A stretch of 64,000 bases of DNA, taken from NCBI RefSeq assembly GCF_008014775.2, contig NZ_CP144914.1, forward strand, positions 3,100,001 through 3,164,000, read 5' to 3'. Made by a program: the position numbers and the translations under genes. Positions 19,164-55,382 of this stretch are shown here, one piece after another (the first letter of the stretch is position 1; each line of letters begins with the position of its first letter). This stretch comes from Alkalicoccus halolimnae (GTDB taxonomy: Bacteria > Bacillota > Bacilli > Bacillales > Salisediminibacteriaceae). The notes beneath the pieces are model-generated. The model saw nothing but the letters and a program-made list of their open reading frames with translations, had not been told where the DNA came from and searched no databases.

Positions 19164-22100
19164 CTACTGCTTTTCTACTTCGACATTATCGAGAAGAATA
19201 TGTTCTCCTGTTGTATTTCTTACAGAAAAAATGATCTCTGCTTCCCCGTTCCCCGGAGCTTCATATTCCCACGTTACTTCCTGCCAGTCCGATTCATCAA
19301 GAATCGTATAGTCAGAATAGGCACTGTAATTATTCCCATGAAATCCAACGGCATACATCGCATTGCGGATTTCTCCGCTGCCTTTCACCTGGAAGGTTAC
19401 TTCATAAACAGATCCTTCTTCCATGCTGTACGCCTCTGTCGTAAAACGCTGATGACCTGTATTATCACGTACAAGCTGTGTCGCGTAATCACCGGTAAAA
19501 GCATCCTCCGATTGATTAACCCGGGACTGGGCCATACTTGTTGATTCTCCCATCCAGTTTACCGGCAGGTCATTTTCCCACTCGGCAAACGTCCCGTTTT
19601 GAATCGTTTCCAGTCCTTCTGCCGTCGACTGCACTACGACAGTTAAGGTTAGAATTCCTGTGTTTCCGGAAGAATCGGTAACTTCGTAGCGGACCTGGTA
19701 AGTACCAGGATTCTCAGAGTCCACGTTATCAGTAACAGTGACATCTTCTGTCACATCACCATCCGTATCGTCGACCGCGGTTACTTCCGGCACTTCGAAA
19801 TCATCTCCCGCAGAGATTTCCATATAAGCTTCTTCATTCAGGCTTTCATCTGTAAAGGTTATTTCCGGAGGCGTTGTATCTCCCATGTCGTAATCGGGAT
19901 CAATATCCGGAATAGTCAGCTGGACCATGATCGGATCGTGGTCGCTTGCACGTCCGTGTGTTTCCATAAATTCAGAGTTGATCGCCATCGCATCTACGTC
20001 CATCCCGTTCTGCAGGTGCTCCGAAACGAGAATAGAGTCGAGCGATTGAGAACTGCCGTTATAGTTATACGTGTACTGTTCATTACGTGGAAGTTCCAGA
20101 ATCGAATTATAGAGATTACCTTTGTCTGCAAGAGTTTCTACAGGAGGAGACCATGGGAAATCATTAAAATCTCCAAGAACTACGACGTTTGGATCTTCTA
20201 CTGCTTCATTGAGTTCCTGAACAAATCCGCCTACTACCTGGGCAATTTCTTCACGCTGTTCCCGGCTTCCCTGTACCGGAGGCTGCTCCATTCCGTAAGG
20301 AGCAAGGTCCCCGCGCTTCGAGTTCCAGTGGTTGCCGATGACGTAAACAGGCTCTCCTTTAAAAATAAATTCAGATACGACAGGCTTTCTCGAATTCGTG
20401 AAAGCGTCATTCATCGGATCAATGAAGCCCGTGCCGTAGCTGAGCTCTCCGTTTTCTCCGATTTCCACCGCTTCTGTCGGTTCTGCCGTGCTTTCATCTG
20501 CCAGCTCCACGCGGTCCGTACGGTAAATATGTCCAACACGGATGTTCCCGCCCGGAATACCACCGTCCATACCATCGACAGGAGCGACATCTGTATAAGC
20601 ATACTGAGGTCCGCCCTGTTCCCGGATCTCGTCAATCAGCGTCTGATAACTTTCCCCTGCATCTGTATTGCCGCTGTCTGTCGCACCGTCGTTATCCATA
20701 ACTTCCACGAGCGTAATAATATCCGGCGCATTCAATTCGTTCGCCATCGAGTCCGCCAGCCGCTCTGTTTTCTGATCTGAAACGCCTGGATAATAGTTTT
20801 CTACGTTATAGGTGGCAACTGTCAGCTCATCTTCTTCGAAAGAAATCGTTGTCTCGTCCCGGCGTTCATTTCCTCCGTCTTTCAGTTCAGGAAGACCGCC
20901 GTCCACAGGCTCCACTTTGTAGTTGCCAAAATTATAGCCCAAGACACCCGTAACATTTTCTTCAAAGTAATCGCCTGTTTTAGCAACCGTATTGTAAGGG
21001 GCGTTAATAAACATAATTTCTGTGTTGAGTTCAGCATCAAACTCGGATTGTTCAAGATAGACGCCGCCGGAATCGGTTCTGTTATCCAGACCCCACTCTT
21101 CGGATACTACGGTCAGTTCGTCATACTTCTGCGGGCCTGTCACCGTGACCTGCCCCGGAATTTCAATAAGCATTCCTTCGATACTTTCATAAAAGTCGAG
21201 GGCATTCGTTTCTGCATTAAACGTATCGCCGTCCGCTATGTCATAACTCTCCGGATCAGCTACAAGCGCTTCCGGAATATCACGGTCCACGCCGATCACG
21301 ACCGGATCCGGCAGGTCGTTTCCGCTGGATACAATATCGACAGCAGAACCGGTAATCTGCGTTGTAGTCAGGTCATCGTTATCATCGTACCCGTCTTCTT
21401 CCCACTCTGTAACAGTTCCTGAGACCTGAACTTCATCTCCGACGGATACTCCGTGATTGGAACGATAGACATAAATACCTTCCGACGAATTTACATCGCC
21501 GTCCGATTCCGCACTCTGGAAGTAAAACCCGTTGTTTTCGGTATGTGTCACAATACCAGGAACCGCAGTAACAGACTGGTCTTCATAAGGAGAAACATGC
21601 GCTCCTCCCTGGATATCGTAAATCTCCACTTCGCCTGCTTCCGCCTGAATTGTGTAAGAGAATTCTCTTACAGCACTCGGCTCCAGACCTTCCGCAACAG
21701 CCACAGCTTTAATCGTAACTGCTTCTTCCACTACAATCGGTTCTTCATAAAGAGTACTGTCCACGGAAGGCTCACTTCCGTCTACTGTGTAGTAAATATC
21801 CGCTCCGTCACTTGGAGAAGAAAGCATGACTTCCGTTCCCTCTGCTGTCTCTCCAGGTTCAGGACTTGCCTGTACCGGACGTGTCAGACTCGCATCTTCT
21901 ATCAGATCATCGTTGTTTCTCGGCATTAATTTGTGTTCTGAAAAATGATAGTTCACGACGCCGACTAATGCGTCATAATCTGTGTTTTCCGTGACATCTG
22001 CATATTGGCCGAGGACAAGGAAGTTTTCCCCTGCTCCGTCTTCAGCATTAAAGTCACTGAAATCAATATTATCCAGAACAGAAGCATCCTGAATTTCAAT

Positions 22101-22871
22101 CAGCTTCGCCTGAATGTCGTCAGCATCCTGTTCAAAGAAAGATGCATCAACCACTTCCGGTTCTATATCTCCGGCATTTTCTTCAATCAGCTCGGAATCA
22201 TCCACCAGGAGCTGCAGCATATCCTGATAGTTGTTCAGTTCACCAGAAAAAGAGACACGGTCACCGATATTGTATTCCGCTCCCAGGCCAGATCCACGCA
22301 CAAGTATGGCGGCTGTTTCATCCTCGACATACATGTTCGTCTGACCGCCGGCTTCAAAATGAGCAGTAACTGTACCGGTTACTGTCTGTTCTGTCCCCTG
22401 TTCTTCTGCACGAACCTCTGCAATCGTCGGACCTTCAGGTTCTTCTTCCTCTTCTAAAAAGTTAAAAGAAGCTGTATTTCCGTTGACCGCAAATTCTCCG
22501 GCAAGGCCAGAAAGATCGTCATTTTTATGTTCAACAACTACATTCGAACGATTATCGGAATCAACTTTATAATCGGTCAGTTCGGGCTCAATCTCTTCCC
22601 CATCGGTTAAAGTAACGAGGACGTCCAGCATGCGGTCCACATGGATGCCCTTAGGATACGTTTTATCAAATTCGACGTTGAAGCTTGTTTCATCAAGAAC
22701 GGTTACTTCCTGTACTTCGCGTTTAGGTCCGCTGCCTCCGGGGCCTTCCCCTGATCCACCGTTGCCATTGCCGTTATTCGCAAGTGCAGCGGGTGCAAAC
22801 GTTGTGACCGTCAACACAACAGCAAGGAAAGTAAAAAGAACCTTTTTGCTGACTGCTATCCAGGATTTCAA
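19164..22871 (-). CDS. Large secreted multidomain nuclease (ExeM/NucH family)
   Basis: The likely start is the TTG at 22869-22871 (MKSWIAVSKKVLF), eight bases after AGGAGG; a TTG two codons earlier is too close to that site. The 1235-residue product has a signal peptide (about 1-33, ending AALA), a GNGNGGSGEGPGGSGP linker, and an OB-fold nucleic-acid-binding region (about 150-330). A chitobiase-like Ig-type domain follows (about 330-410, ADIYYTVDGSEP), then a second OB region. The EEP nuclease domain (about 690-1000) has VATYNVENYYPG, LVEVMDN, GNHWNSKRGD, VVLGDFNDFP and ASDHDPIMVQL. It ends with a DUF5011 Ig-like domain (about 1005-1090) and a carbohydrate-binding-like jelly roll (about 1095-1235). 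It probably degrades extracellular DNA or RNA for phosphate, nucleosides or biofilm turnover. No sorting signal is seen. Confidence 0.88.
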   Translation of the reverse strand: MKSWIAVSKKVLFTFLAVVLTVTTFAPAALANNGNGNGGSGEGPGGSGPKREVQEVTVLDETSFNVEFDKTYPKGIHVDRMLDVLVTLTDGEEIEPELTDYKVDSDNRSNVVVEHKNDDLSGLAGEFAVNGNTASFNFLEEEEEPEGPTIAEVRAEEQGTEQTVTGTVTAHFEAGGQTNMYVEDETAAILVRGSGLGAEYNIGDRVSFSGELNNYQDMLQLLVDDSELIEENAGDIEPEVVDASFFEQDADDIQAKLIEIQDASVLDNIDFSDFNAEDGAGENFLVLGQYADVTENTDYDALVGVVNYHFSEHKLMPRNNDDLIEDASLTRPVQASPEPGETAEGTEVMLSSPSDGADIYYTVDGSEPSVDSTLYEEPIVVEEAVTIKAVAVAEGLEPSAVREFSYTIQAEAGEVEIYDIQGGAHVSPYEDQSVTAVPGIVTHTENNGFYFQSAESDGDVNSSEGIYVYRSNHGVSVGDEVQVSGTVTEWEEDGYDDNDDLTTTQITGSAVDIVSSGNDLPDPVVIGVDRDIPEALVADPESYDIADGDTFNAETNALDFYESIEGMLIEIPGQVTVTGPQKYDELTVVSEEWGLDNRTDSGGVYLEQSEFDAELNTEIMFINAPYNTVAKTGDYFEENVTGVLGYNFGNYKVEPVDGGLPELKDGGNERRDETTISFEEDELTVATYNVENYYPGVSDQKTERLADSMANELNAPDIITLVEVMDNDGATDSGNTDAGESYQTLIDEIREQGGPQYAYTDVAPVDGMDGGIPGGNIRVGHIYRTDRVELADESTAEPTEAVEIGENGELSYGTGFIDPMNDAFTNSRKPVVSEFIFKGEPVYVIGNHWNSKRGDLAPYGMEQPPVQGSREQREEIAQVVGGFVQELNEAVEDPNVVVLGDFNDFPWSPPVETLADKGNLYNSILELPRNEQYTYNYNGSSQSLDSILVSEHLQNGMDVDAMAINSEFMETHGRASDHDPIMVQLTIPDIDPDYDMGDTTPPEITFTDESLNEEAYMEISAGDDFEVPEVTAVDDTDGDVTEDVTVTDNVDSENPGTYQVRYEVTDSSGNTGILTLTVVVQSTAEGLETIQNGTFAEWENDLPVNWMGESTSMAQSRVNQSEDAFTGDYATQLVRDNTGHQRFTTEAYSMEEGSVYEVTFQVKGSGEIRNAMYAVGFHGNNYSAYSDYTILDESDWQEVTWEYEAPGNGEAEIIFSVRNTTGEHILLDNVEVEKQ

Positions 22872-23237
22872 ATACAACTCCTCCTTCTAGATTATGTATT
22901 GTGGGAAAACACCATAATTTTCAGTATTTTCAAGCAGATCATACCATGAAAGCAGTCTTGAATAAACGGAGAAGAATGATAGCTAAATGAATAAAACCAT
23001 GCTTTAAGACCTTAAATTTTGAGATTATTTTCCTTTTTATCTCCCTCTTTCGGTATGTAATAAGATGTATAAAATCTATTTCAAATTATTCAGAAAATAC
23101 GTTCAACTAATTAATGACGTCAGTTTCGATAAATTATGCTCATTATTCTTTATAAAGAACAAGAAAAATGGAAGGGAAACAATCCGGATGAAATTATGTT
23201 TGCATACTCCATAAATAGATATAAGAACGAAAAAAAT
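22872..23237. other. AT-rich upstream region of the nuclease gene
   Basis: This is the leader and promoter side of the nuclease gene. A 103-codon minus-strand frame (23103-23414) overlaps the adjacent terminator, lacks a ribosome site and matches no family, so it is not called. Confidence 0.35.
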
Positions 23238-23262
23238 GGGCATAAATAGTAAATTTATGCCC
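23238..23262 (-). terminator. Terminator of the pxp operon
   Basis: GGGCATAAAT / ATTTATGCCC stem with a five-base loop, followed on the minus strand by ATTTTTTTCG. It lies 167 bases after the pxpC stop codon. Confidence 0.75.
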
Positions 23263-23428: not shown

Positions 23429-24373
23429 TCACGTAAGAGCGAGCCTGGCAAAACAGCGGAATCTTTTTTCGCGGCGGGCATAGATCTCCTGTGCTTTTTT
23501 AACGCTGACTGCTGTAAAACGCACTGGTTCCCCAGGACCGCACTGAGCAACCCTCGGCAGATCTTCCTGAATAACTGTACCGATGCGGGCGTACCCACCG
23601 GAAGTCTGGCGATCAGCCATGAGAAGCATCGGCAGACCGTCACCTGGAATTTGTATAGTTCCCATTGTTGTCGCATCAGACAGAATACCAGAACCTTCTT
23701 CAGGAGGCACAGACGGTCCTTCCATACGGCATCCCATTCTGTCTACTTCATTGGTGAGATAAAATTTTGAATCATAAAATATATCTTTCGTTTCTCCCGA
23801 AAATAACTTCTCATCCGGTCCTTCGATAACCCTGATCGGTGTTCCTTTATCATAGTTTGGAAGCAGCGCAGGATGAAGACGCCGCCGGCATGGAAAGCGC
23901 TGCACAGAAAAGATATTTACCTCATCTCCGGCCTGCAGTTCTCTACCGTGAAAACCGCCGATTTCTGCTTTTAAATAGGTGGCTCTGCTTCCCATTTCTT
24001 CAGGGACGTCAATGCCTCCGGCAAAAGCAATATAAGCCCTCACTCCAAAACGGGGTTCTCCGAAGCTGATCCGCTGGCCGGCATAGACTTTTACTGCTGT
24101 CCACATTGGAATTTCCCGGCCGTCCACCGCTGCCGATAAATCTCCCCCTCCTACCGAAATCATGCTGTCTGCTGTCATTATCAGTTCCGGTCCCATCATT
24201 GTCACTTCGAGACCGGCAGCACTATCAGGATTGCCGACAACCGCGTTAGCGAGACGAAGGGCCAATGGATCTACTGCCCCGCTTACGACGATGCCATACT
24301 GCTGATACCCCATTCTTCCTTTATCCTGTACTGTCGTTAATAATCCCTGTTTTTCAACTTTAAATCCGCTCAT
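23429..24373 (-). CDS. pxpC: 5-oxoprolinase subunit PxpC (KipA homologue)
   Basis: The 314-residue product is a biotin-dependent-carboxylase-like (AHS2) protein: VEKQGLLTTVQDKGRMGYQQ at the start, GAVDPLALRLANAVVGN, then RVIEGPDEKLF, DRMGCRMEGP and MLLMADRQTSGGYARIGTV. With PxpA and PxpB it forms the ATP-dependent bacterial 5-oxoprolinase that opens pyroglutamate to glutamate. In B. subtilis the homologue KipA also relieves KipI inhibition of the sporulation kinase KinA. The start overlaps the pxpA stop by four bases (ATGA), so translation is coupled. It is the last gene of the operon. Confidence 0.93.
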   Translation of the reverse strand: MSGFKVEKQGLLTTVQDKGRMGYQQYGIVVSGAVDPLALRLANAVVGNPDSAAGLEVTMMGPELIMTADSMISVGGGDLSAAVDGREIPMWTAVKVYAGQRISFGEPRFGVRAYIAFAGGIDVPEEMGSRATYLKAEIGGFHGRELQAGDEVNIFSVQRFPCRRRLHPALLPNYDKGTPIRVIEGPDEKLFSGETKDIFYDSKFYLTNEVDRMGCRMEGPSVPPEEGSGILSDATTMGTIQIPGDGLPMLLMADRQTSGGYARIGTVIQEDLPRVAQCGPGEPVRFTAVSVKKAQEIYARREKRFRCFARLALT

Positions 24374-25137
24374 CGTCTCACCGCCCCGGCTGCAACAATT
24401 TCCACGCCAGCCTGTTCCAGTTCTTTTTTTAGTTCTATAGCAAAGACTGCAGCATTTTTTCCGTCACCGTGAATGCAAACGGTATCTGCCTGCAGAATAA
24501 TTTCCGATCCATCCACTGCCCGGACTCTTCCTTCTTTCACCATCCGCACCGCTCTTTCCACTACTTCAGACGGATCGGTAAGAACAGCTTCCCTGTGCGA
24601 ACGGGGAGTTAATGTCCCATCCGGCTGATAGCTTCTGTCAGCAAAAACTTCCTGCACAACAGCAAGCCCTGCTTTTTCGCCGGCATGAATCAACCGGCTT
24701 CCGGAAAGACCGAAAAGAAGCAGGGACGGATCGGCATCACGCACCGCCTCCGCTATCGCTGCTGCTGTTGCATCATCGAGAGATGCTTTATTGAAGAGAG
24801 CCCCATGCGGCTTCACGTGATGCATTTCTACGCCATATGCTTTACAGAAGGAGTGCAGCGCCCCGATCTGATAAAGAACCGTGTGATAAATATCTTCCGG
24901 TGTCGTATCAATATGACGCCGTCCAAAGCCCATTAAATCGTTATACCCCGGATGGGCTCCGACATTGACGCCATGGATTTTCGCTAATTTAACTGTCTCA
25001 GCCATAATGTTATGATCGCCTGCATGATATCCGCAGGCAATATTGACAGAGGTGACGTGCGGGAGAACTTCCTCATCTCCTCCTATAACATATGCGCCGA
25101 AGCTTTCTCCGAGATCACAGTTTAAATCCACTCTCAT
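24370..25137 (-). CDS. pxpA: 5-oxoprolinase subunit PxpA (LamB/YcsF family)
   Basis: The 255-residue product starts VDLNCDLGESFGAYVIG and has VNIACGYHAGDHNIM, VGAHPGYNDLMGFGRR, VKPHGALFNKA and CIHGDGKNA, all family signatures with the metal- and substrate-facing His, Asp and Lys residues. It is the substrate-cleaving subunit of cytoplasmic 5-oxoprolinase. It overlaps pxpB upstream and pxpC downstream by four bases each, so the three subunits should be made in step. Confidence 0.95.
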   Translation of the reverse strand: MRVDLNCDLGESFGAYVIGGDEEVLPHVTSVNIACGYHAGDHNIMAETVKLAKIHGVNVGAHPGYNDLMGFGRRHIDTTPEDIYHTVLYQIGALHSFCKAYGVEMHHVKPHGALFNKASLDDATAAAIAEAVRDADPSLLLFGLSGSRLIHAGEKAGLAVVQEVFADRSYQPDGTLTPRSHREAVLTDPSEVVERAVRMVKEGRVRAVDGSEIILQADTVCIHGDGKNAAVFAIELKKELEQAGVEIVAAGAVRR

Positions 25138-25853
25138 CGTTGCTCCCCCCTTAGTCGTTCCAGTTCAAAATTTCCTTCTTCCACTTTCTGTTGAATTTCC
25201 TGGAACTGCTGTTTTGTCACAGCTTGGAAGCGGAGTTTATCTCCTGCTTCCAGAAAGACAGGCAGTGTTTTCTTACGATCATAAAGTTTAAGGGGTGTCC
25301 GGCCGATAATCCGCCAGCCTCCCGGACTTGTCAGAGAGTAAATGCCCGTCTGCTCACCGGCAATTCCTACAGAACCGGCGGGTACCGATGACCTTGGTTT
25401 CTCCAGTCTTGGAGCAGCTATGGAACTATCCATCCCTCCTAAATATGGAAAGCCGGGTATAAATCCGAGCATAAAGATAGTATATAACGGCTTCGTGTGC
25501 CGATCGATGATCTCGTTCGGATGAAGACCAAGCCTTTCGCCTACTCCTTCTATATCCGGGGCAAACTCCTCTTCATAGCAGACGGGAATGCTCCATGTGC
25601 GCGCCGGTATTGTTTCCACGCTGTCCAAATCTTTTACGAGTACCTTTACCCACTCCTCTGTTTCCTTATAGGAAAAATGAAGAGCATCATAAAATATCGT
25701 TACCGCGGTATAGGAAGGCATCCATTCGATAATACCGGAGGGCTTCATTTCTTCAAGAATTCTGCAGAATGCACGGACTTTTCCATGCACCTGTTCGGAT
25801 ATTTCCTTCCCGAAAACTACTCTCACTGCACTGTCCCCAAGGGGTTGAATCAT
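25134..25853 (-). CDS. pxpB: 5-oxoprolinase subunit PxpB (KipI homologue)
   Basis: The 239-residue product is an AHS1/KipI-family protein: PLGDSAVRVVFG at the start, YTAVTIFYDA, then TKPLYTIFMLGFIPGFPYLGGMD, PAGSVGIAGEQTGIYSLTSPGGWRIIGRTP near the C-terminus. It is the partner subunit that with PxpC handles the ATP-dependent step. In B. subtilis KipI binds the dimerisation domain of histidine kinase KinA and blocks its autophosphorylation. Here the gene starts 16 bases after the stop of a membrane histidine kinase, with AAAGGAGG in the gap, so both must share a transcript. A regulatory contact between the two is inferred, not shown. Confidence 0.93.
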   Translation of the reverse strand: MIQPLGDSAVRVVFGKEISEQVHGKVRAFCRILEEMKPSGIIEWMPSYTAVTIFYDALHFSYKETEEWVKVLVKDLDSVETIPARTWSIPVCYEEEFAPDIEGVGERLGLHPNEIIDRHTKPLYTIFMLGFIPGFPYLGGMDSSIAAPRLEKPRSSVPAGSVGIAGEQTGIYSLTSPGGWRIIGRTPLKLYDRKKTLPVFLEAGDKLRFQAVTKQQFQEIQQKVEEGNFELERLRGEQR

Positions 25854-25869
25854 TTGAGTTAACCTCCTT

Positions 25870-27681
25870 TCACGCTTCTTTTTGAAGTGGGAATTCCAGA
25901 CAGAAAACGGTTCCTGCCGGTGAAGTTTCCACTAAATATATCCTGCCTTTATGGTTATCCATAATTCGTTCGGCAATTGTCAATCCAAGGCCTGTACCCG
26001 AATCTTTCGACGTCGAAAAAGGCTCAAACATGACTTCCGCTTCTTCTTCAGGAATTCCCGGCCCGTTATCGAGGACGCGGATGCAGTAAAGGTCCTCTTT
26101 TATTTTGCCTTCGATCTTAATTTTCCCGCCTTCTTCCATTGCTTCCGCACTGTTACGAATTAAGTTGTGGAAAACCTGTTTCATCTGGCTGCTGTCGATA
26201 TACAGCTTCACTTTTTCCAATTCCATATCACAAGATATTTTATATACATCAAGCGTTTCCTTAATTAATGGGAAAATTTCGTCCATCACGTCCTGAAGAT
26301 ACCTTTCTTCAAAACGGGGCGCTCCTGGTTTGGACAGCATGAGCATTTCTTCGATAATGCCATTAATCCGTTCAATTTCTTTCAGCAGAAGCGAAAGATG
26401 AAATTTCTCTATTTCCTCTTCGGATAGAGACTGTTTCATTAAACTGAGGAATCCGTCAATAACAGCCAGTGGATTACGGATTTCGTGCGCTGCTCCGGCA
26501 GACAGTTCGCCGATCAGCGCCAGTTTTTCGGTCCGGCGGACTTTCTGCTCGAGACGCTCTGTTTCTGTAATATCAATAAAGTAAAATATTTTCCCTATTG
26601 CTTCCTGGCTCTCATTAACCAGCTCGGACCGCGAAGCAAGAAACGTACATTCCTCTTCCCCATCCGTATACCACACCTTTTCGTTTTGAAACATTTCTTC
26701 AGACGTGAGTACTTCCCAGAAGCGGTGACGCCCCTCTGCCTTCTTCTTCAGCTCCGGAAGCTCCTCGATCTTGAAATCCACCCCCATGACTTTACGTGCG
26801 GTCTGGTTCAGCTGTACGTCTCCCGTCCGCTCGTCCACTGTTACTATGCCAACCGGCAGCGAATCGAGAATCTGTTCCCGGTATCGTTTATCTGCTACCA
26901 GCATATCGAACGACCGTTTCAGCTGATAGGACATCTCATTGATCGAACGCGTTAACGGTTCGAGTTCCACCTGTTTCGTATTTTCTACAGACGCTCCATA
27001 ATTGCCGGCTGCAATGTGCTGCAGCTGGTCTTCCATTTTTTTAACCGGACGAGTAAATCCTGCACTTAACCGGTAGGAAAAAAGCAGGGCAAGCAGGAAA
27101 ACGACTGCTGTTACTATGAGAAGCAGATCCACTGCTTCGGAAATAATGGTATCAAAACGATCATTTTCGTTATATAATGTCATATTAACAGCCTGGCGTT
27201 CCGACTCGATGTTACTGCGCAGCTGCTCCAGTGCAGGGAAATAGTTATTCTCCAAATATTCAGCTGCACCTTCCGTCTCTCCTCCCTCAATTACACCTGC
27301 GAGGTTGTTTAATACAATAAAATCCAGCAGTTCCAATTCTCTTTCCAGTGCTTCGAGGGAGGAAGGAGGCGGTTCATAAACGTCTTCCATCGTTTCCCTT
27401 CCATCGATTCTCATTTCTTCGTATCTGGAAATAAACTCACAGCAGAAGTCGGTTTCCACTCCTACTTCTACATACTGCTCTTTCATATAAATCTGTGACT
27501 CCCAGTGGGAAAGCCACAGCAGTTCAGGAACATTTTCTGTTGTTATCGACTCGCTGACGTCACTCATTTCACCAAGAGAGCTGACGAAAAAAAACGAAAG
27601 ACTGCTGAGTACAGCAGTCAATAGCAGCAGCACAACTAATATTTTTGAACGAAGGCTCCATTTATTTTTTCCCGTGTTCAC
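25870..27681 (-). CDS. Membrane sensor histidine kinase (HAMP-PAS-HisKA-HATPase)
   Basis: The start is GTG 27679-27681, with GGAGGG upstream. The 603-residue product has a membrane helix (about 12-34), an extracytoplasmic segment (about 35-185, with adjacent Cys in DFCCEF), a second helix (about 186-208), HAMP (about 209-265), PAS (about 275-385), HisKA with the phospho-accepting His in AAHEIRNPLAVIDGF (about 400) and a HATPase_c domain with NLIRNSAEAM, DNGPGIPEEE and GTGLGLTIAERIM. This plan is that of KinB/KinD-like orphan kinases. No response regulator gene is adjacent. It sits between a BMP/Med-like gene (31 bases upstream) and pxpB (16 bases downstream). Confidence 0.92.
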   Translation of the reverse strand: MNTGKNKWSLRSKILVVLLLLTAVLSSLSFFFVSSLGEMSDVSESITTENVPELLWLSHWESQIYMKEQYVEVGVETDFCCEFISRYEEMRIDGRETMEDVYEPPPSSLEALERELELLDFIVLNNLAGVIEGGETEGAAEYLENNYFPALEQLRSNIESERQAVNMTLYNENDRFDTIISEAVDLLLIVTAVVFLLALLFSYRLSAGFTRPVKKMEDQLQHIAAGNYGASVENTKQVELEPLTRSINEMSYQLKRSFDMLVADKRYREQILDSLPVGIVTVDERTGDVQLNQTARKVMGVDFKIEELPELKKKAEGRHRFWEVLTSEEMFQNEKVWYTDGEEECTFLASRSELVNESQEAIGKIFYFIDITETERLEQKVRRTEKLALIGELSAGAAHEIRNPLAVIDGFLSLMKQSLSEEEIEKFHLSLLLKEIERINGIIEEMLMLSKPGAPRFEERYLQDVMDEIFPLIKETLDVYKISCDMELEKVKLYIDSSQMKQVFHNLIRNSAEAMEEGGKIKIEGKIKEDLYCIRVLDNGPGIPEEEAEVMFEPFSTSKDSGTGLGLTIAERIMDNHKGRIYLVETSPAGTVFCLEFPLQKEA

Positions 27682-27712
27682 TGGTTAACCCCCTCCATTC
27701 AAATTCCATTGG

Positions 27713-28702
27713 TCATTCCTGCAGCATATCTATTTTTTCGTTTACTCTGTATAGTTCCTCTTCCGTAAACATCGGACCGAAAGAACTGATCCCGTAAACG
27801 CTGTCTTCAAGCGTCAGCCTCTGCACATTCCCCGGCAGCCCGTCACCAGAAAGATAATCACTCATCATCCGCTCGTAAATGGCAGGAATATCAACGACCA
27901 CACTCGTGAGAACGCAGCCTTCTCCTAAATAAGCCTGATCCTCAATGAATCCGATAACGTAAAAATCCCTTTTTCTCGCTTGATCAATAACATACCGGTT
28001 AAACATGTTGCCACGTGAATAAATAACGTCTGCGCCTCCTTCCAGCAGAACATCCAGTGCCTCGAGAGCCTCTCCTTTATCATTTCTGCTATCTACCGTT
28101 TCATACATAATTTCGATATCTTCATAAAAATTTTCCAGCGTGCTTTTTATTTCGTCATAACCTTGCCAATCTCCTTCTTTACCCAGCACACCTATTTTTT
28201 TAGTCGTTGAAATTTCTGCACCGCTGATAAGTGCCCGGGTTTCCGCGTCGGTAATATCGAAAGTGTAGACCGTATGATTGGCATGCGCAGAGTCTCCGTG
28301 AAGGGTCACAAACTCAGTATCGGGATGCTGCGGGGCATATTTCTTGAAAACTTCCGAAAATTCTCCGCCGTGCCCTATTATAATATCCGCTGTATTATCC
28401 AGCTCTTTTTCTGTACGGAATTCCTTGAGCATGTCTGTCGTTAAGTTCGGATAAATTTCCACGTCGGCATCGAAATGCTCCTCCAAATGAATCTGGCTGT
28501 AAAAAGCATGGCTTCCCCAGCTCTGATCGTGTACGGAATCAGAAGTTAATATAACTGTTTCCGGGTTCTGTTCTGTTCTGTCTTTTTCAGCTTCGACAAA
28601 CATGTATTCGGAAAAATAGTAGAGAAGTCCAATAAGCAGTATAGCTCCGGCAAAGGCAATGGAAATGATGATTCTGCTTTGTTTCAGCTGCGGCTGCAAC
28701 AT
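27713..28702 (-). CDS. Membrane-anchored BMP-family (Med-like) substrate-binding protein
   Basis: The 329-residue product has one N-terminal membrane helix (about 10-31) and no lipobox cysteine, so it is an uncleaved anchored protein. The rest is a periplasmic-binding fold of the BMP family: VHDQSWGSHAFYSQIHLEE, IIIGHGGEFSEVF, IGVLGKEGDWQG, GADVIYSRGNMFNRYVIDQA and YVIGFIEDQAYLGEGCVLTSVVVD. BMP proteins usually bind nucleosides for ABC importers; the membrane-anchored B. subtilis relative Med promotes comK expression. No ABC transporter genes are here. As first gene of an operon with a sensor kinase and pxpBAC, it may be the ligand-binding partner of the kinase (inference). AAAGGTGGG precedes the ATG. 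Confidence 0.8.
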   Translation of the reverse strand: MLQPQLKQSRIIISIAFAGAILLIGLLYYFSEYMFVEAEKDRTEQNPETVILTSDSVHDQSWGSHAFYSQIHLEEHFDADVEIYPNLTTDMLKEFRTEKELDNTADIIIGHGGEFSEVFKKYAPQHPDTEFVTLHGDSAHANHTVYTFDITDAETRALISGAEISTTKKIGVLGKEGDWQGYDEIKSTLENFYEDIEIMYETVDSRNDKGEALEALDVLLEGGADVIYSRGNMFNRYVIDQARKRDFYVIGFIEDQAYLGEGCVLTSVVVDIPAIYERMMSDYLSGDGLPGNVQRLTLEDSVYGISSFGPMFTEEELYRVNEKIDMLQE

Positions 28703-49025: not shown

Positions 49026-49059
49026 AAACATACAAAACTAACTGTTGAAGGAGGCTGCT

Positions 49060-50343
49060 ATGTACAAAAAATTACTCGATCATTACGATTCCTCCCTCAC
49101 TAAAAACGGGGTCGACGGGGAACGCCTGGCATCGAGGCTCGATGCTCTCTCTAAAATCGGTCTGACAGAAGATAACGGAAGCCGCCGCATTTCGTTTTCC
49201 CCCGAAGAACAACAGGCTAAAGACCTTGTCAAAGGCTGGATGGAAGAAGCCGGCTTAACCGTAACGCAGGACGGTGCAGCCAATGTTATCGGCAGGCTCG
49301 GCGGCAGCAGCTCATCCAAAACGATCATGGCCGGCTCCCACCTCGACAGCGTACCGAATGGCGGCCATTTTGACGGACCGCTCGGCGTGCTCGCTGCTCT
49401 TGAAGTAGCCCAGGCCTGGAAAGACAGTGGTTTTCACCCTGAAAAATCCTATGAAGTCATCATTTTCACAGATGAAGAAGGCTCCCGTTTTAACAGCGGG
49501 TTAACCGGGAGTCAGGCGATGACCGGTCAGTGGAGCGAAGAACAGAAAAGCAGTCTCACCGATGCTGTTGGCAGAACATTTACGAGTGTTCTAAAAGATA
49601 ATAACCTGAGTTTCCAGACGTTCCATGAAGCAGAACGGGACTTTTCCGACATCGAAGCCTTTGTGGAAGTTCACATTGAGCAGGGAAAGCGGCTGGAAAA
49701 AGAAAACCTTCCGACCGGTATTGTCGAAGGAATCGCAGGACCTTCCTGGCTGAATATCAGTTTTCACGGAAATGCCGGCCACGCTGGAAATACACCGATG
49801 GATGACAGAGAGGATGCCCTCATTGCAGCCGGCCAGTTTATCAGTGCTGTTGAAAACCTGCCTCCGCTCATCAGTCCTTCCTCCGTCGCTACAGTCGGAA
49901 AACTGGACGTAAAGCCGAACGGTGTCAACGTTATTCCGGGAGAAGTCTATCTGACTGTCGACGTCCGGGATATTCACGAAGAGACCCGGGACAAGCTCCG
50001 CGACTCCGTGCTGCTTTTAGCTGAAAAAATAGCTGAAAAGCGGAGGATTCAAGTAGATACAAAGGAAGTAATGTACGTTCAGCCGGTTCAAGTAACTCAA
50101 AACATGCAGCAGAAAGCCGGCAGAGCAGCCGAAGAAGTCCTCGGCAAAAAACCATTTTTTCTTCCGAGCGGTGCCGGTCATGACGCGATGATGATCGGAA
50201 GAAAAACCGATGTGGCAATGCTTTTCACAAGAAGTAAAGACGGGATCAGCCACAGTCCCGAAGAATGGTCGTCGCTCGATGACTGTGTTCAGACCGTTCA
50301 TGTCCTGAAAAAGCTGATCGAATCGCTTAGTTACGTTAAATAG
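49060..50343 (+). CDS. M20-family Zn-dependent amidohydrolase (allantoate/N-carbamoyl amino acid type), copy 1
   Basis: The start is ATG 49060 (MYKKLLDHYDSSL), after GAAGGAGG; a TTG five codons upstream overlaps that site. The 427-residue product has the di-metal motifs of the AllC/HyuC/AmaB group: AGSHLDSVPNGGHFDGPLG, FTDEEGSRF, VHIEQGKRLE and LPSGAGHDAMM near the end, with the lid dimerisation domain (about 215-330, GNAGHAGNTPMDDRED) between. Such enzymes hydrolyse allantoate, ureidoglycine or N-carbamoyl amino acids; which one cannot be read. It is followed 36 bases later by the TRAP binding protein gene and has a close paralogue at 54105. Confidence 0.9.
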   Translation: MYKKLLDHYDSSLTKNGVDGERLASRLDALSKIGLTEDNGSRRISFSPEEQQAKDLVKGWMEEAGLTVTQDGAANVIGRLGGSSSSKTIMAGSHLDSVPNGGHFDGPLGVLAALEVAQAWKDSGFHPEKSYEVIIFTDEEGSRFNSGLTGSQAMTGQWSEEQKSSLTDAVGRTFTSVLKDNNLSFQTFHEAERDFSDIEAFVEVHIEQGKRLEKENLPTGIVEGIAGPSWLNISFHGNAGHAGNTPMDDREDALIAAGQFISAVENLPPLISPSSVATVGKLDVKPNGVNVIPGEVYLTVDVRDIHEETRDKLRDSVLLLAEKIAEKRRIQVDTKEVMYVQPVQVTQNMQQKAGRAAEEVLGKKPFFLPSGAGHDAMMIGRKTDVAMLFTRSKDGISHSPEEWSSLDDCVQTVHVLKKLIESLSYVK

Positions 50344-50378
50344 ATTCAACCATAAACTACTTAAGAGGAGTGGGCATC

Positions 50379-51485
50379 ATGAAAAAAACGTACAGCTTAA
50401 CTGCAGGAGCCGCCGTGTTCCTTTTTCTCAGTGCATGCGGAGTCGAAAGCGGCGAAACTAACAACGCTGCCCAAGACAACGAAGAAACAAATAACAGCAC
50501 AGATAACGCCGCGGAGGAACCGGAAAATGACGAAGCATCAAATAACAGTGCAGACGCTGAACACGTCTGGCAGCTCGGCTGGAACTCCGGTCTGGATGAC
50601 GATTCCAAGGGAGAAGCAGCCAAAGCGTTTGCCGAGTATGTAAACGAAGAGTCGGACGGCCGTATCGATATTGAGTTTTTCCCGAACGAAACGTATGCCA
50701 CTTCTCCGGAAATGATCGAAGCTGTTCAGGTGGGGGCTCTTGATATGGCGCTGCCCGGGGCCAATGAACTGGCCGGCGTCGTTCCTGAATATGCCGCTTT
50801 ATCCCTTCCCTTCCTTACCGAAGGATTCGACGAAGCCCATGCCGTTCTTGACGGCCCTGTAGGAGACGATTTGAAGGCTATGGGAGAAGAAAACGGCTTT
50901 ATCACATTGAACGATGTGGAAATCGGCTTTGCACAAATTACAAATAATGTCCGTCCGATTGAAGAGCCGGAAGACATTGAGGGGCTTACGATCCGCTCCC
51001 CTAACGACGTCAGCCTGATCGAAACGTTCAATGCTCTCGGAGCTTCCGTTTCCACGATGGCTTATACGGAAATCTACAGCGGTCTCTCCCAGGGTGTTAT
51101 TGACGGACAGTTCAATCCGCTTCTCAGCATTTATGACCAGAATATGCAGGAAGTTCAGGATTACCTTTCCATTACGAATCACACGTATTACTATTCCTAT
51201 ATGATCATGGACGACGAACTGTTTAACGGGCTTGATGAAGAACTGCAGCAGATCGTGCGCGACGGTTCGGAACGCGGACGGGACGCAGCACGCGAATTTA
51301 TCGCTTCGGAAGAAGAAGCGGCACTGGAACGGGCCGAAGACGAGTTTGAAGAAGTTACTTACCCGGATCTGCCTCCTTTCCAGGAAGCAGTAGAACCTGT
51401 CTATACCGAAGTGGAAGATGTCATGGGAGCTGAGATTATTCAGGATATGAGAGATTTCCTCGAAGAGTACCGGAACGATCAGTAA
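50379..51485 (+). CDS. dctP: TRAP transporter solute-binding lipoprotein (DctP)
   Basis: The start is ATG 50379 (MKKTYSLTAGAAVFLFLSAC), after AGAGGAGTG. The 368-residue product has a lipoprotein signal with the lipobox LSAC and lipidated C20. An Asn/Glu-rich linker (about 21-60) follows, then a DctP fold: LGWNSGLDDDSKGEAAKAF, FFPNETYATSPEMIEAVQVG, the IRSPNDVSLIETFNALGAS region with the substrate-carboxylate Arg, and YTEIYSGLSQGVIDGQ. It captures an organic acid, probably bearing a carboxylate, outside the membrane and passes it to the DctQ-DctM permease encoded next. The operon order suggests a ligand that the adjacent amidohydrolase can cleave, such as an N-carbamoyl or N-acyl amino acid. 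Confidence 0.93.
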   Translation: MKKTYSLTAGAAVFLFLSACGVESGETNNAAQDNEETNNSTDNAAEEPENDEASNNSADAEHVWQLGWNSGLDDDSKGEAAKAFAEYVNEESDGRIDIEFFPNETYATSPEMIEAVQVGALDMALPGANELAGVVPEYAALSLPFLTEGFDEAHAVLDGPVGDDLKAMGEENGFITLNDVEIGFAQITNNVRPIEEPEDIEGLTIRSPNDVSLIETFNALGASVSTMAYTEIYSGLSQGVIDGQFNPLLSIYDQNMQEVQDYLSITNHTYYYSYMIMDDELFNGLDEELQQIVRDGSERGRDAAREFIASEEEAALERAEDEFEEVTYPDLPPFQEAVEPVYTEVEDVMGAEIIQDMRDFLEEYRNDQ

Positions 51486-51561
51486 AGAACTACAATAAGT
51501 GCGGAGACAGAGGCCTTTCGACGCAGGCCTCTTATTCGCTTAATGAAGGAGGCACCAGCTC

Positions 51562-52101
51562 ATGCCGCAGGAAGAAAAACGCCCCCCGCGCGGAAAAGTT
51601 GCCGTCATCATGCGTTATATTGAAGGAGTTTCCTCGTTTCTGCTGGCGGTGCTGACGGTCGTCGTATTCAGCGAAGTGCTGAGCCGTTATGTTTTCCAGA
51701 CACCGCTCGTTTTTTCCAATGAAATGACCCAGCTTTTGTTTCCGTGGATGATTTTTGTTGCTGCAATTGCCGTAACCCATGATGATGCCCATCTGTCCGT
51801 CTCCTATTTCCGGGACAGGCTCCCCTACTTTATGCAGAAAGGCCTGTACATGTTTTCTAAAGTGGTCATGCTCATATTCTCTGTCTTTATGATCGTATCG
51901 AGCATGCAGTTTGTCGGCAATGTTTCGGGCCAGGTTATGCCGGTGCTTCGTATTTCAAGCGGCTGGCTTGCCTCTTCTGTCGTCTTTTCGTTTATCTTCA
52001 TCAGCCTTGTACTTATTTATCAAATTTATTTAATTTCCACGAACAAAATGCTCGTGCCGGGAGAGGAGGAAGCCTACCTTGATATGGATAATGATCGCTA
52101 G
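51562..52101 (+). CDS. dctQ: TRAP transporter small permease (DctQ)
   Basis: The 179-residue product has four hydrophobic segments (about 17-38, 52-72, 94-114, 135-156) and the DctQ motifs EVLSRYVFQTPLVFSNEM and LLFPWMIFVAAIAVTHDDAHLSV. It forms the membrane complex with DctM and contacts the binding protein. GAAGGAGG precedes the ATG. The 3' end overlaps the start of dctM by 23 bases. Confidence 0.92.
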   Translation: MPQEEKRPPRGKVAVIMRYIEGVSSFLLAVLTVVVFSEVLSRYVFQTPLVFSNEMTQLLFPWMIFVAAIAVTHDDAHLSVSYFRDRLPYFMQKGLYMFSKVVMLIFSVFMIVSSMQFVGNVSGQVMPVLRISSGWLASSVVFSFIFISLVLIYQIYLISTNKMLVPGEEEAYLDMDNDR

Positions 52102-53356
52102 CTTTTTTCTATTAATTATTCTCGGTATACCGATCGCCTTTGCGATGGGTGCTTCCGCTCTGATGTATATTGTCGTAGCAGGTATTCCTCTGGAAATGCT
52201 TACACAGCGGTTCTTTTCCAACACCCAGTCCTTCGCCTTTCTTGCGATCCCTTTTTTCATACTGGCAGGAAACCTGATGATCCACGGCAACATCGCCCAG
52301 CGCATTATCAGCGTGGCTGATTCCATGGTCCGCCAGCTCCCGGGTGGTCTCGGCTGTGTCTCCGTTGTCACAAGTATGGGAATGGCTGGCGTATCCGGTT
52401 CGTCTATTGCTGATGCAGCTTCTACCGGGAGCGTGCTCATTCCGGAAATGAAAAAGAAGGGTTACAGTGCCAAGTTTGCGGCCTCGATCAACGCTTCCAG
52501 TTCCGTTGTCGGCATTATCATTCCCCCAAGTTCGACGATGATCATTATCGCCTGGCTTGTCGGATCAGACATTTCCGTTGGTGAAATGTTTATTGCCGGC
52601 ATCGTTCCCGGCATTCTCATAGGAATTGCCTATTTAATAACTACCGTTCTGATCGCATTGAAGCGGGGCTATCCAAGTGAAAAAAAACCGACACTAAAAG
52701 AATTTCTATCCAATCTACGCAGAGCTTCCCTCGCCCTTCTGCTGCCTTTTCTATTAATCAGTGCAATTATTTTCGGGGTGGCAACGGCGACCGAAGCAGC
52801 CGCTCTTGCAGTTGTTTATGCGCTCCTGCTCGGTCTTTTCGTTTATAAAACGCTGAACTGGAATAACATTGTCAGGTCTTTAAAAGAATCCGCCCACGGG
52901 ACGAGTATCGTCATGGTTACAATCTGTGCGTCGATGATCTTTACGTGGGTACTCATTTCCGAAGGGATTCCACGGATGATTTCCGATGCGCTCACCGGAC
53001 TCGGCCTCCCTTCGTGGGGACTTCTGCTCGTACTTGTGGCGATTATGCTCGTAGCCGGAATGATTATGGAACTTGTCCCGAATTTATTTTTGTTTATTCC
53101 GATTTTCATGCCGATTGCAACTGACATCATCGGCATGGACCCGATGCACTTTGCGATGATCATGCTCGTCACCTTCGCCCTCGGTATGTTCACACCGCCG
53201 GTCGGCGCGACGCTTTTCATTTCCTGCTTCATTGCCAAAGTAAAAATAGAAGAAACGGTCATGGATGTCCTTCCGTACTTTCTTGCAGGCGTAGCTGTCG
53301 TATTAATTATTTCCTTCTTTCCATTCACCGTTCTTCTGCTGCCTTCGCTGTTTTAG
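52079..53356 (+). CDS. dctM: TRAP transporter large permease (DctM)
   Basis: The 425-residue product has about 12 membrane segments and the DctM signatures GIPIAFAMGASALMY, FLAIPFFILAGNLM, GVSGSSIADAASTGSVLIP, ASSSVVGIIIPPSSTMIII and LGMFTPPVGATLFISC. It carries the Na+-coupled transport step. A TTG at 52079 nine bases after GAGGAGG is the best start; an ATG four codons later is possible. Translation is coupled to dctQ through the overlap. A terminator follows at 53435. Confidence 0.93.
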   Translation: MIWIMIASFFLLIILGIPIAFAMGASALMYIVVAGIPLEMLTQRFFSNTQSFAFLAIPFFILAGNLMIHGNIAQRIISVADSMVRQLPGGLGCVSVVTSMGMAGVSGSSIADAASTGSVLIPEMKKKGYSAKFAASINASSSVVGIIIPPSSTMIIIAWLVGSDISVGEMFIAGIVPGILIGIAYLITTVLIALKRGYPSEKKPTLKEFLSNLRRASLALLLPFLLISAIIFGVATATEAAALAVVYALLLGLFVYKTLNWNNIVRSLKESAHGTSIVMVTICASMIFTWVLISEGIPRMISDALTGLGLPSWGLLLVLVAIMLVAGMIMELVPNLFLFIPIFMPIATDIIGMDPMHFAMIMLVTFALGMFTPPVGATLFISCFIAKVKIEETVMDVLPYFLAGVAVVLIISFFPFTVLLLPSLF

Positions 53357-53434
53357 CGAAAAATATTTGAAGGGTGGTTCGGTATTCAAGAGCCATATAA
53401 CAAATAACAGATCAGCAAATGTTTTAACACCCTC

Positions 53435-53470
53435 AGCCAAAGGAGAAGTTTTTATGCTCCTTTGGCTCCT
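53435..53470 (+). terminator. Terminator of the hydrolase-TRAP operon
   Basis: AGCCAAAGGAG / CTCCTTTGGCT stem with an 11-base loop, followed by CCTTTTATG, 78 bases after the dctM stop codon. Confidence 0.75.
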
Positions 53471-53499
53471 TTTATGTGTTTCTGTAACTGCCGGAGAAA

Positions 53500-53935
53500 G
53501 AATGGGATGATTTAGGGGCGATTGAGGCGGCCCGCCCGGAAAGCGTCCCTGTGGGAACGAAAGCTTACGTCTATCGCTTATCTGCTTTATCTTCAAGGCA
53601 GCTTATTTTTAAGGTATACACTTATGCAAAAGCCTTGCACCGTGAAGGAGGAAAAACCCTTCTACAGGAATGGAATTTCCCATCTGTAAAAGTAGTATGA
53701 ATGATGTTCAAGAAAGGATTTTCTTTATTAGATGGAAGATACTTCACTATCTTTTTACCGTGAGCCGGAGTGGAGATGGGGCGACTCCGGGGCGATGAAG
53801 GACGAGCGGAAGATCCATTCCGTCCGACGGAAGGGAGGGCGGAATTAGCTGAAGCCGGTCCGCCCGGAAAGCGTCCCCATGGAAACGAAAGCGCACGTTC
53901 ACCGATTTTCTACTTTATTTTCAAGGCAGCTTAAA
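53500..53935 (+). repeat. R1 right modules in tandem
   Basis: The first unit is only the right core and end (CCCGGAAAGCGTCCCTGTG to TCTTCAAGGCAGC, about 53515-53600). A full right module follows, beginning ACACTTATGCAAAAGCC and TGCACCGTGAAGG, then TTTTTACCGTGAGCCGG, GACTCCGGGGCGATGAAGG, the inverted pair CATTCCGTCCGACGG / GGAGGGCGGAAT, CGGAAAGCGTCC and TTATTTTCAAGGCAGC. It stands between the TRAP operon and the second hydrolase gene. Confidence 0.8.
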
Positions 53936-54060
53936 ACTTAAGTTCAGCTAATATAATTACTGGGATTTTTTTATTTCCATTCTCTTGCTGCGATTTTAAC
54001 TACATTTAACCTTTCCCCCAAAGTGGTAAATAACGGTATATCTTATTAAGCTGAATTATT

Positions 54061-54072
54061 TTATAATTTAGA
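54061..54072 (+). promoter_or_regulatory. Promoter block of the second hydrolase gene
   Basis: TTATAATTTAGA, identical to 49014-49025, contains TATAAT (54062-54067) and lies 33 bases before the start codon. The match extends loosely on both sides, suggesting that the promoter was duplicated with the gene and kept. Confidence 0.5.
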
Positions 54073-54104
54073 TAATATGGTATGCAAATTAAAGGAGGAT
54101 GACT

Positions 54105-55382
54105 ATGTACGATAAACTCGTTCGCTCATATAACAAAGAACTTTCCTATAATGGAGTCGAGGGAGAACGAATTGCCAGACGACTTCACGCTATTTCCCGC
54201 ATCGGCAGGACAAAGCAGGAAGGAAGCCGGCGGCTTGCTTTTACGCCGGAAGAAACCGAAGCCAAAGAAATGGTCTGGGAATGGATGGAAAAGGCAGGGC
54301 TTCAAGTTCGAAAAGATGGAGCTGGCAATATTATCGGCCGGTTTGAAGGGAATTCTTCTCAGACAATTATCTCCGGCTCCCATTTAGACAGCGTCCCGAA
54401 CGGCGGACATTTTGACGGCCCGCTCGGCGTCCTTGCTGCTCTTGAAGTAGCCCAGGCATGGAAAGATACCGGTTTTAAGCCGGAAAAATCATATGAAGTC
54501 GTCATATTTACAGATGAAGAAGGTGCACGTTTCCGCAGTGGATTTACAGGCAGCCAGGCAATGACCGGCCTCTGGGAACAGGAGGTAAAAGAAAAGCTCA
54601 CCGACGAAAATGGTAAGACTTTTTCCCAGGTTCTTCAGGAAAACGGACTGAGTTTTGATACGATGCGCAGTGCAGAACGCGATTTCCGATCCATTGAAGC
54701 TTTTATCGAAGTTCATATTGAACAGGGCAAACGTCTCGAAAAGGAAGACCTGCCGGTAGGTATCGTCCAGGGAATTGCCGGTCCCTGCTGGCTCAACGTC
54801 CGGTTCCACGGAACAGCAGGGCACGCCGGCAACACGCCGATGAACGACCGCAGAGATGCCCTTGTCGCCGCCAGTCAGTTCGTACAGGCTGTGGAAGAGC
54901 TTCCCCCTCTTATCAGCCGTTCCTCTGTCGCTACCGTCGGAAAAATGGAAGTATCACCGAACGGCGTGAACGTGATCCCGGGTGAAGTCAACCTCACTGT
55001 GGATCTGCGTGATATTCATGAAGGAAACAGAGATAAGTTAAAAGAGGCTGTACTTCTGCTTGCTGGTAAAATAGCCGACACAAGAGGCGTGACAGTTACA
55101 ACAGAAGAAAAAATTAACGTCACTCCCGTGCAGGTAAACAGGGATATGCAGCAAAGAGCAGCACAGGCAATGTATGATACGTTAAAGCAGGAACCATTTT
55201 TTCTTCCGAGCGGAGCTGGTCACGACGCCATGGTCATGGGGCAGAAAACAGATATTGCAATGCTTTTTACGAGAAGCAAAGACGGTGTCAGCCATACCCC
55301 GGAGGAATGGTCTTCCCTGGATGACTGCACCCAGACTGTTCATGTACTGAAAAAGCTGATAGAAGATCTCTGCAGAAACTGA
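54105..55382 (+). CDS. M20-family Zn-dependent amidohydrolase, copy 2
   Basis: The start is the second ATG (54105, MYDKLVRSYNKEL), six bases after AAAGGAGG; the ATG at 54099 is too close. The 425-residue product aligns with the copy at 49060 without large gaps and keeps every metal and substrate motif (GSHLDSVPNGGHFDGPLGV, FTDEEGARF, HIEQGKRLEKEDLP, LPSGAGHDAM). Differences are spread along the chain, so the duplication is not recent. It is on its own transcript downstream of the TRAP operon, with the same promoter block. Different chain-length or stereochemical preference is possible but not visible. Confidence 0.9.
   Translation: MYDKLVRSYNKELSYNGVEGERIARRLHAISRIGRTKQEGSRRLAFTPEETEAKEMVWEWMEKAGLQVRKDGAGNIIGRFEGNSSQTIISGSHLDSVPNGGHFDGPLGVLAALEVAQAWKDTGFKPEKSYEVVIFTDEEGARFRSGFTGSQAMTGLWEQEVKEKLTDENGKTFSQVLQENGLSFDTMRSAERDFRSIEAFIEVHIEQGKRLEKEDLPVGIVQGIAGPCWLNVRFHGTAGHAGNTPMNDRRDALVAASQFVQAVEELPPLISRSSVATVGKMEVSPNGVNVIPGEVNLTVDLRDIHEGNRDKLKEAVLLLAGKIADTRGVTVTTEEKINVTPVQVNRDMQQRAAQAMYDTLKQEPFFLPSGAGHDAMVMGQKTDIAMLFTRSKDGVSHTPEEWSSLDDCTQTVHVLKKLIEDLCRN

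Follow-up and report, generated by a model that had tools for sequence, protein, structure and literature searches.

The window, the whole stretch of 64,000 nucleotides of Alkalicoccus halolimnae DNA analysed here, contains five open reading frames that are all on the minus strand and run from 28702 to 23429 in the order BMP, kinase, pxpB, pxpA and pxpC. The features are as follows.

27713..28702, minus strand: BMP/PnrA-like substrate-binding protein, Med-like, first gene of the operon (PF02608)
25870..27681, minus strand: orphan sensor histidine kinase, second gene of the operon (Pfam HAMP, HisKA and HATPase_c)
25134..25853, minus strand: pxpB, 5-oxoprolinase subunit B of the KipI family (PF02682, TIGR00370)
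24370..25137, minus strand: pxpA, 5-oxoprolinase subunit A, LamB/YcsF (PF03746)
23429..24373, minus strand: pxpC, 5-oxoprolinase subunit C of the KipA family (PF02626, TIGR00724)
23238..23262, minus strand: terminator-like hairpin of 10 pairs followed by a T run (pattern scan)

The intergenic gaps within the set are 31, 16, -4 and -4 bases, and the operon spacing described in the sequence-only reading, two short gaps and two 4-base overlaps ahead of a terminator, was found as described. Terminator-like sites numbered 10 in the scan against 6.4 (sd 2.4) in shuffled sequences, and the position of the hairpin is better evidence for a terminator than this count. The promoter scan gave 9 matches against 8.8 in shuffles and hence no promoter evidence; the Rfam search of the window and the tRNA scan each gave 0 matches. 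Co-transcription of pxpBAC with the kinase is probable. Two parts that differ in origin make up the operon, an old two-gene unit of BMP and kinase, probably a receptor, and pxpBAC; these are considered in turn.

The BMP protein has 329 residues and matches PF02608 with 81.4 bits, the cut-off being 24.1. The best fold match of its AlphaFold2 model (pLDDT 93.0) is Med of B. halodurans (2hqb, TM 0.76/0.88), which is the best profile match as well. Med is known as an activator of comK. The BMP relatives studied here differ from Med in that they precede a histidine kinase. A single N-terminal helix predicted at residues 3-43 of the model is taken as a membrane anchor. When the BMP profile was compared with the guanosine-binding Lbp, the DQ motif was kept, and the Asn (of SFN) and Lys of Lbp, which we take to contact the ligand, were aligned with Gly and Asn. 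We know of no ligand or target for the BMP-kinase pair.

The kinase is 603 residues long from a GTG start and consists of a transmembrane segment, a helical ectodomain, a second transmembrane segment, HAMP, a PAS-like domain, HisKA (with His399) and HATPase_c. Its model (pLDDT 82.4, pTM 0.42) predicts four long helices in the ectodomain. Among the best 25 of 88 named families, AtoS gave the highest score, 280.9 bits, far below its cut-off, and KinD gave 179.5 bits against a cut-off of 775. Since AtoS is ahead of KinD and both are far below cut-off, a Spo0F target is not readable from the sequence. The kinase keeps the HEIRNP box, which does not vary among 46 aligned relatives, and its His-box has D before GF, a position occupied by R in the second orphan kinase of this genome and in Geobacillus KinB.

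No receiver-domain match in the genome lies closer to the kinase than 38.7 kb. The 27 HATPase_c matches of this genome (G000), minus five judged by length and place to be something other than sensor kinases, gave 22 kinases, three of which are without a receiver within 5 kb; one of these three shares an ABC-transporter cluster with a receiver 6.8 kb away, which leaves two orphans. Of the 31 receiver matches, the one below the cut-off was dropped, and the receiver at 229560 is immediately preceded by a kinase-like ORF that was seen by eye only (L187). A receiver profile that matched 30 of 30 control loci (seven of them its own seed) was also run around the kinases in a scan of species genomes, where a receiver was found within 3 kb at 2 of 68 loci, the nearer one at 2.5 kb. 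An overlooked adjacent response regulator is ruled out by these searches of the genome and the 68 loci, and the kinase is an orphan as had been proposed. The further claim, that a membrane-anchored BMP-type protein heads the operon together with this membrane kinase, was likewise supported.

The kinase directly follows the BMP gene at all 68 loci and at all 22 family loci that were fetched at length. The median gap between the two genes, using longest-ORF starts, is 18 bases over 67 of the 68 loci (L140 is missing from the count), and in other genera the neighbours of the pair vary by genus. pxpB adjoins the pair at 6 of the 68 loci; five of these records carry the name Alkalicoccus in their titles and the sixth is a MAG labelled Bacillus sp. 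Kinase-pxpB as the conserved unit was therefore rejected: the conserved core is BMP-kinase. A predicted binding-protein fold next to a membrane kinase is what is seen in receptor pairs such as TorT/TorS and LuxP/LuxQ, and TorS also has a helical-bundle sensor like that predicted for the kinase here. The pair differs from these systems in that the binding protein is of the BMP/PnrA type with its own N-terminal helix and the kinase is without a receiver domain or neighbouring regulator. Distances between BMP proteins gave a partial r of 0.29 with those between ectodomains and of 0.47 with those between kinase domains, so the distance correlation does not single out coupling of BMP to the ectodomain. 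Many genera of the Bacillaceae type share the pair, which is a conserved unit resembling a receptor.

The second part of the operon is much more restricted. pxpBAC follows the kinase in 7 of 7 testable Alkalicoccus genomes and in one sister genus (g5) only, so that kinase-pxpB adjacency is kept in 8/8 testable genomes of two genera, and none of the 15 other family loci that were read has pxpBAC within about 9 kb. The expectation that the gene order would be conserved in relatives thus held within Alkalicoccus and its sister genus but failed across the 68 loci as a whole. The kinase-pxpB gaps in the eight genomes are about -20, -4, 2, 8, 16, 19, 66 and 219 bases, values uncertain by a few bases as the start codons of relatives were chosen by script. 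Three genes overlapped by antisense ORFs, pxpA and pxpC in G001 and pxpC in G007, were located by tblastn. Given that all eight testable genomes keep it, the adjacency is more than chance. It could still be plain synteny, pxpBAC having been inserted once behind the BMP-kinase pair and having stayed there with no functional link, given that PEPC is kept upstream in 8/8 linked loci and a nuclease-like gene downstream in 7/8 (it is missing in G001). However, six of the 8 genomes have a gap of at most 19 bases despite an identity of about 45% between window and g5 for both the kinase and PxpB, and we regard a placement of this kind as unlikely, though well worth keeping in mind.

In the tree of BMP and kinase, Alkalicoccus and g5 form one side of a branch (100/100), which fits a single arrival of pxpBAC. 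The trees of the Pxp proteins are less orderly. For PxpB, the seven Alkalicoccus rows are together (93/90) and g5 is elsewhere on a long branch; for PxpA, the Alkalicoccus rows are not together and one g7 row is among them. The combined PxpA+PxpB tree, from which six near-copies of 32 rows were dropped, places g5 apart and the g7 row among the Alkalicoccus rows where long branches meet, and it rejects neither a clade of Alkalicoccus with g5 (p-AU 0.1) nor one of Alkalicoccus alone (p-AU 0.18). G025 groups with G016/G018 for both PxpB (100/99) and PxpA (100/98). On these sequences pxpBAC itself has apparently moved between genera, which would sit well with insertion without a functional link.

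The three 5-oxoprolinase subunit families are all present and adjacent. PxpB matches PF02682 with 232.9 bits and TIGR00370 with 205.5 bits (cut-off 145.55), PxpA matches PF03746 with 336.4 bits, and PxpC matches PF02626 with 293.2 bits and TIGR00724 with 278.8 bits (cut-off 230.2); PxpC is below the NF045499 equivalog cut-off, with 242.5 against 500 bits. For PxpA and PxpB, the two proteins covered by the invariant-column comparison (16 of 32 rows aligned), nine chosen relatives define 74 invariant columns in PxpA and 49 in PxpB, of which the window proteins keep 72 and 47. Linked relatives keep fewer than the window, 60-72 of 74 for PxpA (lowest in g5) and 42-48 of 49 for PxpB. A purely regulatory PxpA/PxpB that has lost its core residues is rejected, as most invariant columns are kept. 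Given that pxpB is the only PF02682 match in this genome and that most invariant residues are kept, the straightforward reading is a functional 5-oxoprolinase, and pxpBAC, the only such set found in the cell, most likely works as an enzyme.

The KipI structures 2zp2 (154.4 bits) and 2kwa (47.3 bits) are among the PDB matches of PxpB, which confirms its proposed membership of the KipI family. KipI and KipA of B. subtilis are reportedly PxpB and PxpC of a 5-oxoprolinase. The protein families and the gene trio are the same here as in B. subtilis, but here the trio adjoins an orphan kinase in operon spacing and spore markers were not found in the genus. The sequence-only reading had proposed that the co-transcribed kinase is inhibited by PxpB, in the way that KinA is by KipI, that PxpC releases it and that 5-oxoproline or glutamate status feeds into a phosphorelay. 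Besides family membership and the adjacency in eight genomes, the kept HEIRNP box agrees with this. The pxp genes may also diverge faster in Alkalicoccus, where mean PxpA identity is 54% (15 pairs from 6 of 8 genomes), than in g6, where it is 76% for one pair with a kinase divergence like that in Alkalicoccus and 66% for all three pairs (3 of 8 genomes); fast divergence may equally be relaxed constraint. However, the His-box and the PxpB core residues are common to relatives without the linkage and so do not discriminate, and 61 loci have the pair with no pxpB in the stretch read, some stretches ending soon after the kinase. The His-box, compared by eye, hardly differs between relatives with pxpB and those without it and gave no sign of kinase-PxpB co-adaptation. 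The ordinary enzyme reading suffices for the pxp genes, and we consider gating of the kinase by PxpB and PxpC improbable. By analogy with KinA, additional inhibition of the BMP-coupled kinase by PxpB is possible; its fuller form, in which PxpB tracks the 5-oxoproline load as a brake encoded in the kinase's own operon and the kinase feeds Spo0F-Spo0A, is if anything more doubtful still. If true, an asporogenous genus would be using what was once a sporulation relay to link an external signal to damage in the glutamate pool inside the cell. The operon allows one to ask whether the KipI-type link from 5-oxoprolinase to kinases extends beyond KinA.

The target of the kinase was considered from the relay genes present. 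A homologue that we take to be Spo0F was found in 35/35 family genomes, Spo0A_C in 35/35 and SPOB_ab in 33/35, the SPOB_ab match in this genome being weak (43 bits). Within Alkalicoccus, Spo0F and Spo0A were found in 8/8 genomes and Spo0B in 6/8 at the threshold used. Phosphorelay kinases of B. subtilis are not known to have an adjacent receiver. Like KinA-KinE, the kinase here is an orphan with a HisKA domain whose genome also encodes Spo0F, Spo0B and Spo0A, but it is far below the KinD cut-off and is kept in genomes without two spore markers. As it is one of only two orphan kinases found in the genome, Spo0F is favoured as its target. The kinase might instead act on another receiver, and the genome does contain orphan receivers, among them a CheY-like one and an OmpR-type one beside a phosphate-transport cluster; AtoS rather than a sporulation kinase as the best named match would agree with this. 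Against it, the lack of an adjacent receiver at the 68 loci is as in the B. subtilis phosphorelay kinases and Spo0F is present throughout the family, and we hold such a receiver to be the less likely target.

A widespread BMP-kinase pair has, in one small lineage of salt-lake bacteria, gained as operon partners the trio of 5-oxoprolinase, an ordinary enzyme of metabolic repair. We propose that the BMP protein, anchored in the membrane outside the cell, probably recognises a small ligand there and, by analogy with TorT/TorS-type pairs, would set the activity of the kinase across the membrane. The kinase, with no response regulator nearby, would then most likely phosphorylate Spo0F and through Spo0B Spo0A. 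pxpBAC would have come to follow the kinase before Alkalicoccus and its sister genus diverged, and is probably transcribed with it and most likely acts as an enzyme. The proposal as a whole, a receptor feeding Spo0F with an enzymatic pxpBAC acquired behind its kinase, is one that we lean towards by a little.

SpoIVA and SASP were not found in 8/8 Alkalicoccus genomes, two of which are only about 80% complete, and of the 11 family genomes that lack these markers 10 retain the BMP-kinase pair. Sporulation is therefore unlikely to be the output of the operon in Alkalicoccus, including by a KipI-type role, and the relay in this apparently asporogenous genus would have some non-spore function. This makes Alkalicoccus a small system for asking what the relay does without spores. 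The sister genus g5 has both SpoIVA and SASP, and there sporulation may be the output.

The operon itself is real. A check of ORFs and spacing bore out the sequence-only reading of its positions, gaps and overlaps, and its five genes lie as follows.

28702-27713, minus strand: BMP gene
27681-25870, minus strand: kinase gene
continuing to 23429, minus strand: pxpB, pxpA and pxpC

A long match to the kinase at 40% identity or more was counted from match rows in 24 of the 35 family genomes, the match in the Alkalicoccus genome G006 being cut. The BMP gene lay immediately upstream of the kinase in all 22 family loci fetched at length and also directly before it in the window and in G006. A BMP-alignment scan of species genomes gave 68 loci, and the kinase followed BMP in every one (68/68, the kinase of locus L073 running off the contig end), though the scan patterns were built from kinase-adjacent BMP genes, find only this BMP subfamily and are silent on whether such kinases exist without BMP. 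Record titles of these loci include Halalkalibacter, Metabacillus, Priestia, Gracilibacillus, Aquibacillus and Domibacillus. The gap between the two genes has a median of 18 bases (range -98 to 178; 67 loci, longest-ORF starts). A receiver-domain profile, seeded with seven receivers of the host genome, matched 30/30 control loci, those seven included. It matched in 6 of the 68 BMP-kinase stretches; in two of these the receiver was less than 3 kb from the kinase, at 2549 and 2973 bases, though a number of the stretches are short, the smallest 3.8 kb, and receivers just past their ends could escape.

The BMP model (pLDDT 93.0) has a BMP/PnrA fold behind a single N-terminal helix, residues 3-43; its top fold match was 2hqb, Med of B. 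halodurans, with nucleoside-binding proteins next. The kinase model (pLDDT 82.4, pTM 0.42) shows four long helices through residue 224, two of which continue out of membrane segments. HAMP, HisKA and HATPase_c were found in 46/46 relatives of the kinase, PF00989 PAS in 23 and Pfam 4HB_MCP_1 in two (E 0.01). Residues 80-81 of the kinase, in its ectodomain, are a Cys-Cys pair, each position being Cys in 43 of 67 aligned rows.

Linkage to pxpBAC is much narrower. These genes follow the kinase in seven Alkalicoccus genomes and in G022 of the sister genus; no pxp genes were found at the remaining 15 family loci fetched at length. PF02682 occurs in 34/35 family genomes and was not found in the G006 assembly, which is ∼80% complete with the contig cut. 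Among the scan loci pxpB was present in six (L074-L079) and absent from the stretch examined in 61, while L073 ends within the kinase. Conversely, no ORF resembling the window's kinase at E 1e-8 was seen near pxpBAC in seven other genomes sampled (15-16 kb), a search that would miss kinases of another class. By eye, a RidA/YjgF-like gene, a metabolite-repair neighbour, follows pxpC in three of these seven (L188, L189, L192).

KipI is thought to touch the HEIRNP box in KinA, and the sequence-only reading had its homologue PxpB, together with PxpC, gating the operon's kinase. PxpB may do so. However, this adds a PxpB-kinase contact of which these comparisons give no specific sign: the HEIRNP box is invariant in 46 aligned relatives, with pxpB nearby or not, and the PxpB core is common to relatives without kinase linkage.

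A single arrival of pxpBAC behind the kinase fits the BMP and kinase tree, where Alkalicoccus and its sister genus form one side of a branch (100/100); long branches keep the pxp trees from giving a firm answer here. Mean identities across six Alkalicoccus were 83.9% for PEPC, 58.5% for the kinase, 48.8% for BMP, 48.7% for PxpB and 53.9% for both PxpA and PxpC. The Salipaludibacillus (g6) pair G026-G024 gave 61, 52, 61, 76 and 74% for kinase, BMP, PxpB, PxpA and PxpC. Its pxp values exceed the Alkalicoccus means, so that, judged from this single pair, kinase-linked pxp genes look to diverge faster. Three-pair g6 means including G025 were 49.5% (PxpB), 65.7% (PxpA) and 59.8% (PxpC). PxpB and PxpA of G025 (loci L054 and L194) cluster with the Evansella (g4) genomes G016 and G018 (100/99 and 100/98), a grouping against genus lines for which transfer of pxpBAC is the likely explanation.

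The host genome (3.69 Mb) has two kinases without a nearby receiver, the operon kinase and another of 712 aa that ends near 3494092 and carries a HEVRNPLTTIRGF box. A prominent single-domain orphan receiver in it is the homologue we take to be Spo0F from gene neighbours; a CheY-like orphan receiver is also there. Given these two orphan kinases and this receiver, the Spo0F relay is the favoured target of the operon kinase, at roughly an even chance. The Spo0F homologue and Spo0A_C were found in 35/35 family genomes and SPOB_ab in 33; for SPOB_ab two of the eight Alkalicoccus genomes fell below threshold, and the other six gave a weak match over the cut-off. SpoIVA and SASP were each found in 24/35; neither was found in the same 11 genomes, eight Alkalicoccus and three Salisediminibacterium, all of which keep Spo0F and Spo0A. 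Gene content thus suggests that the relay has apparently been kept without spores in both genera. BMP-kinase is retained in 10/11 genomes without the spore markers and in 14/24 with them, so the pair is used independently of spores.

Two further features were noted by eye. A large secreted nuclease-like protein is encoded at 19164-22877, and such a gene lies downstream of BMP-kinase at 6/7 Alkalicoccus loci, in the sister genus and at 7/8 g6 loci. At 49045-55382 a TRAP-type transporter sits between two mutually alike amidohydrolase-like genes.
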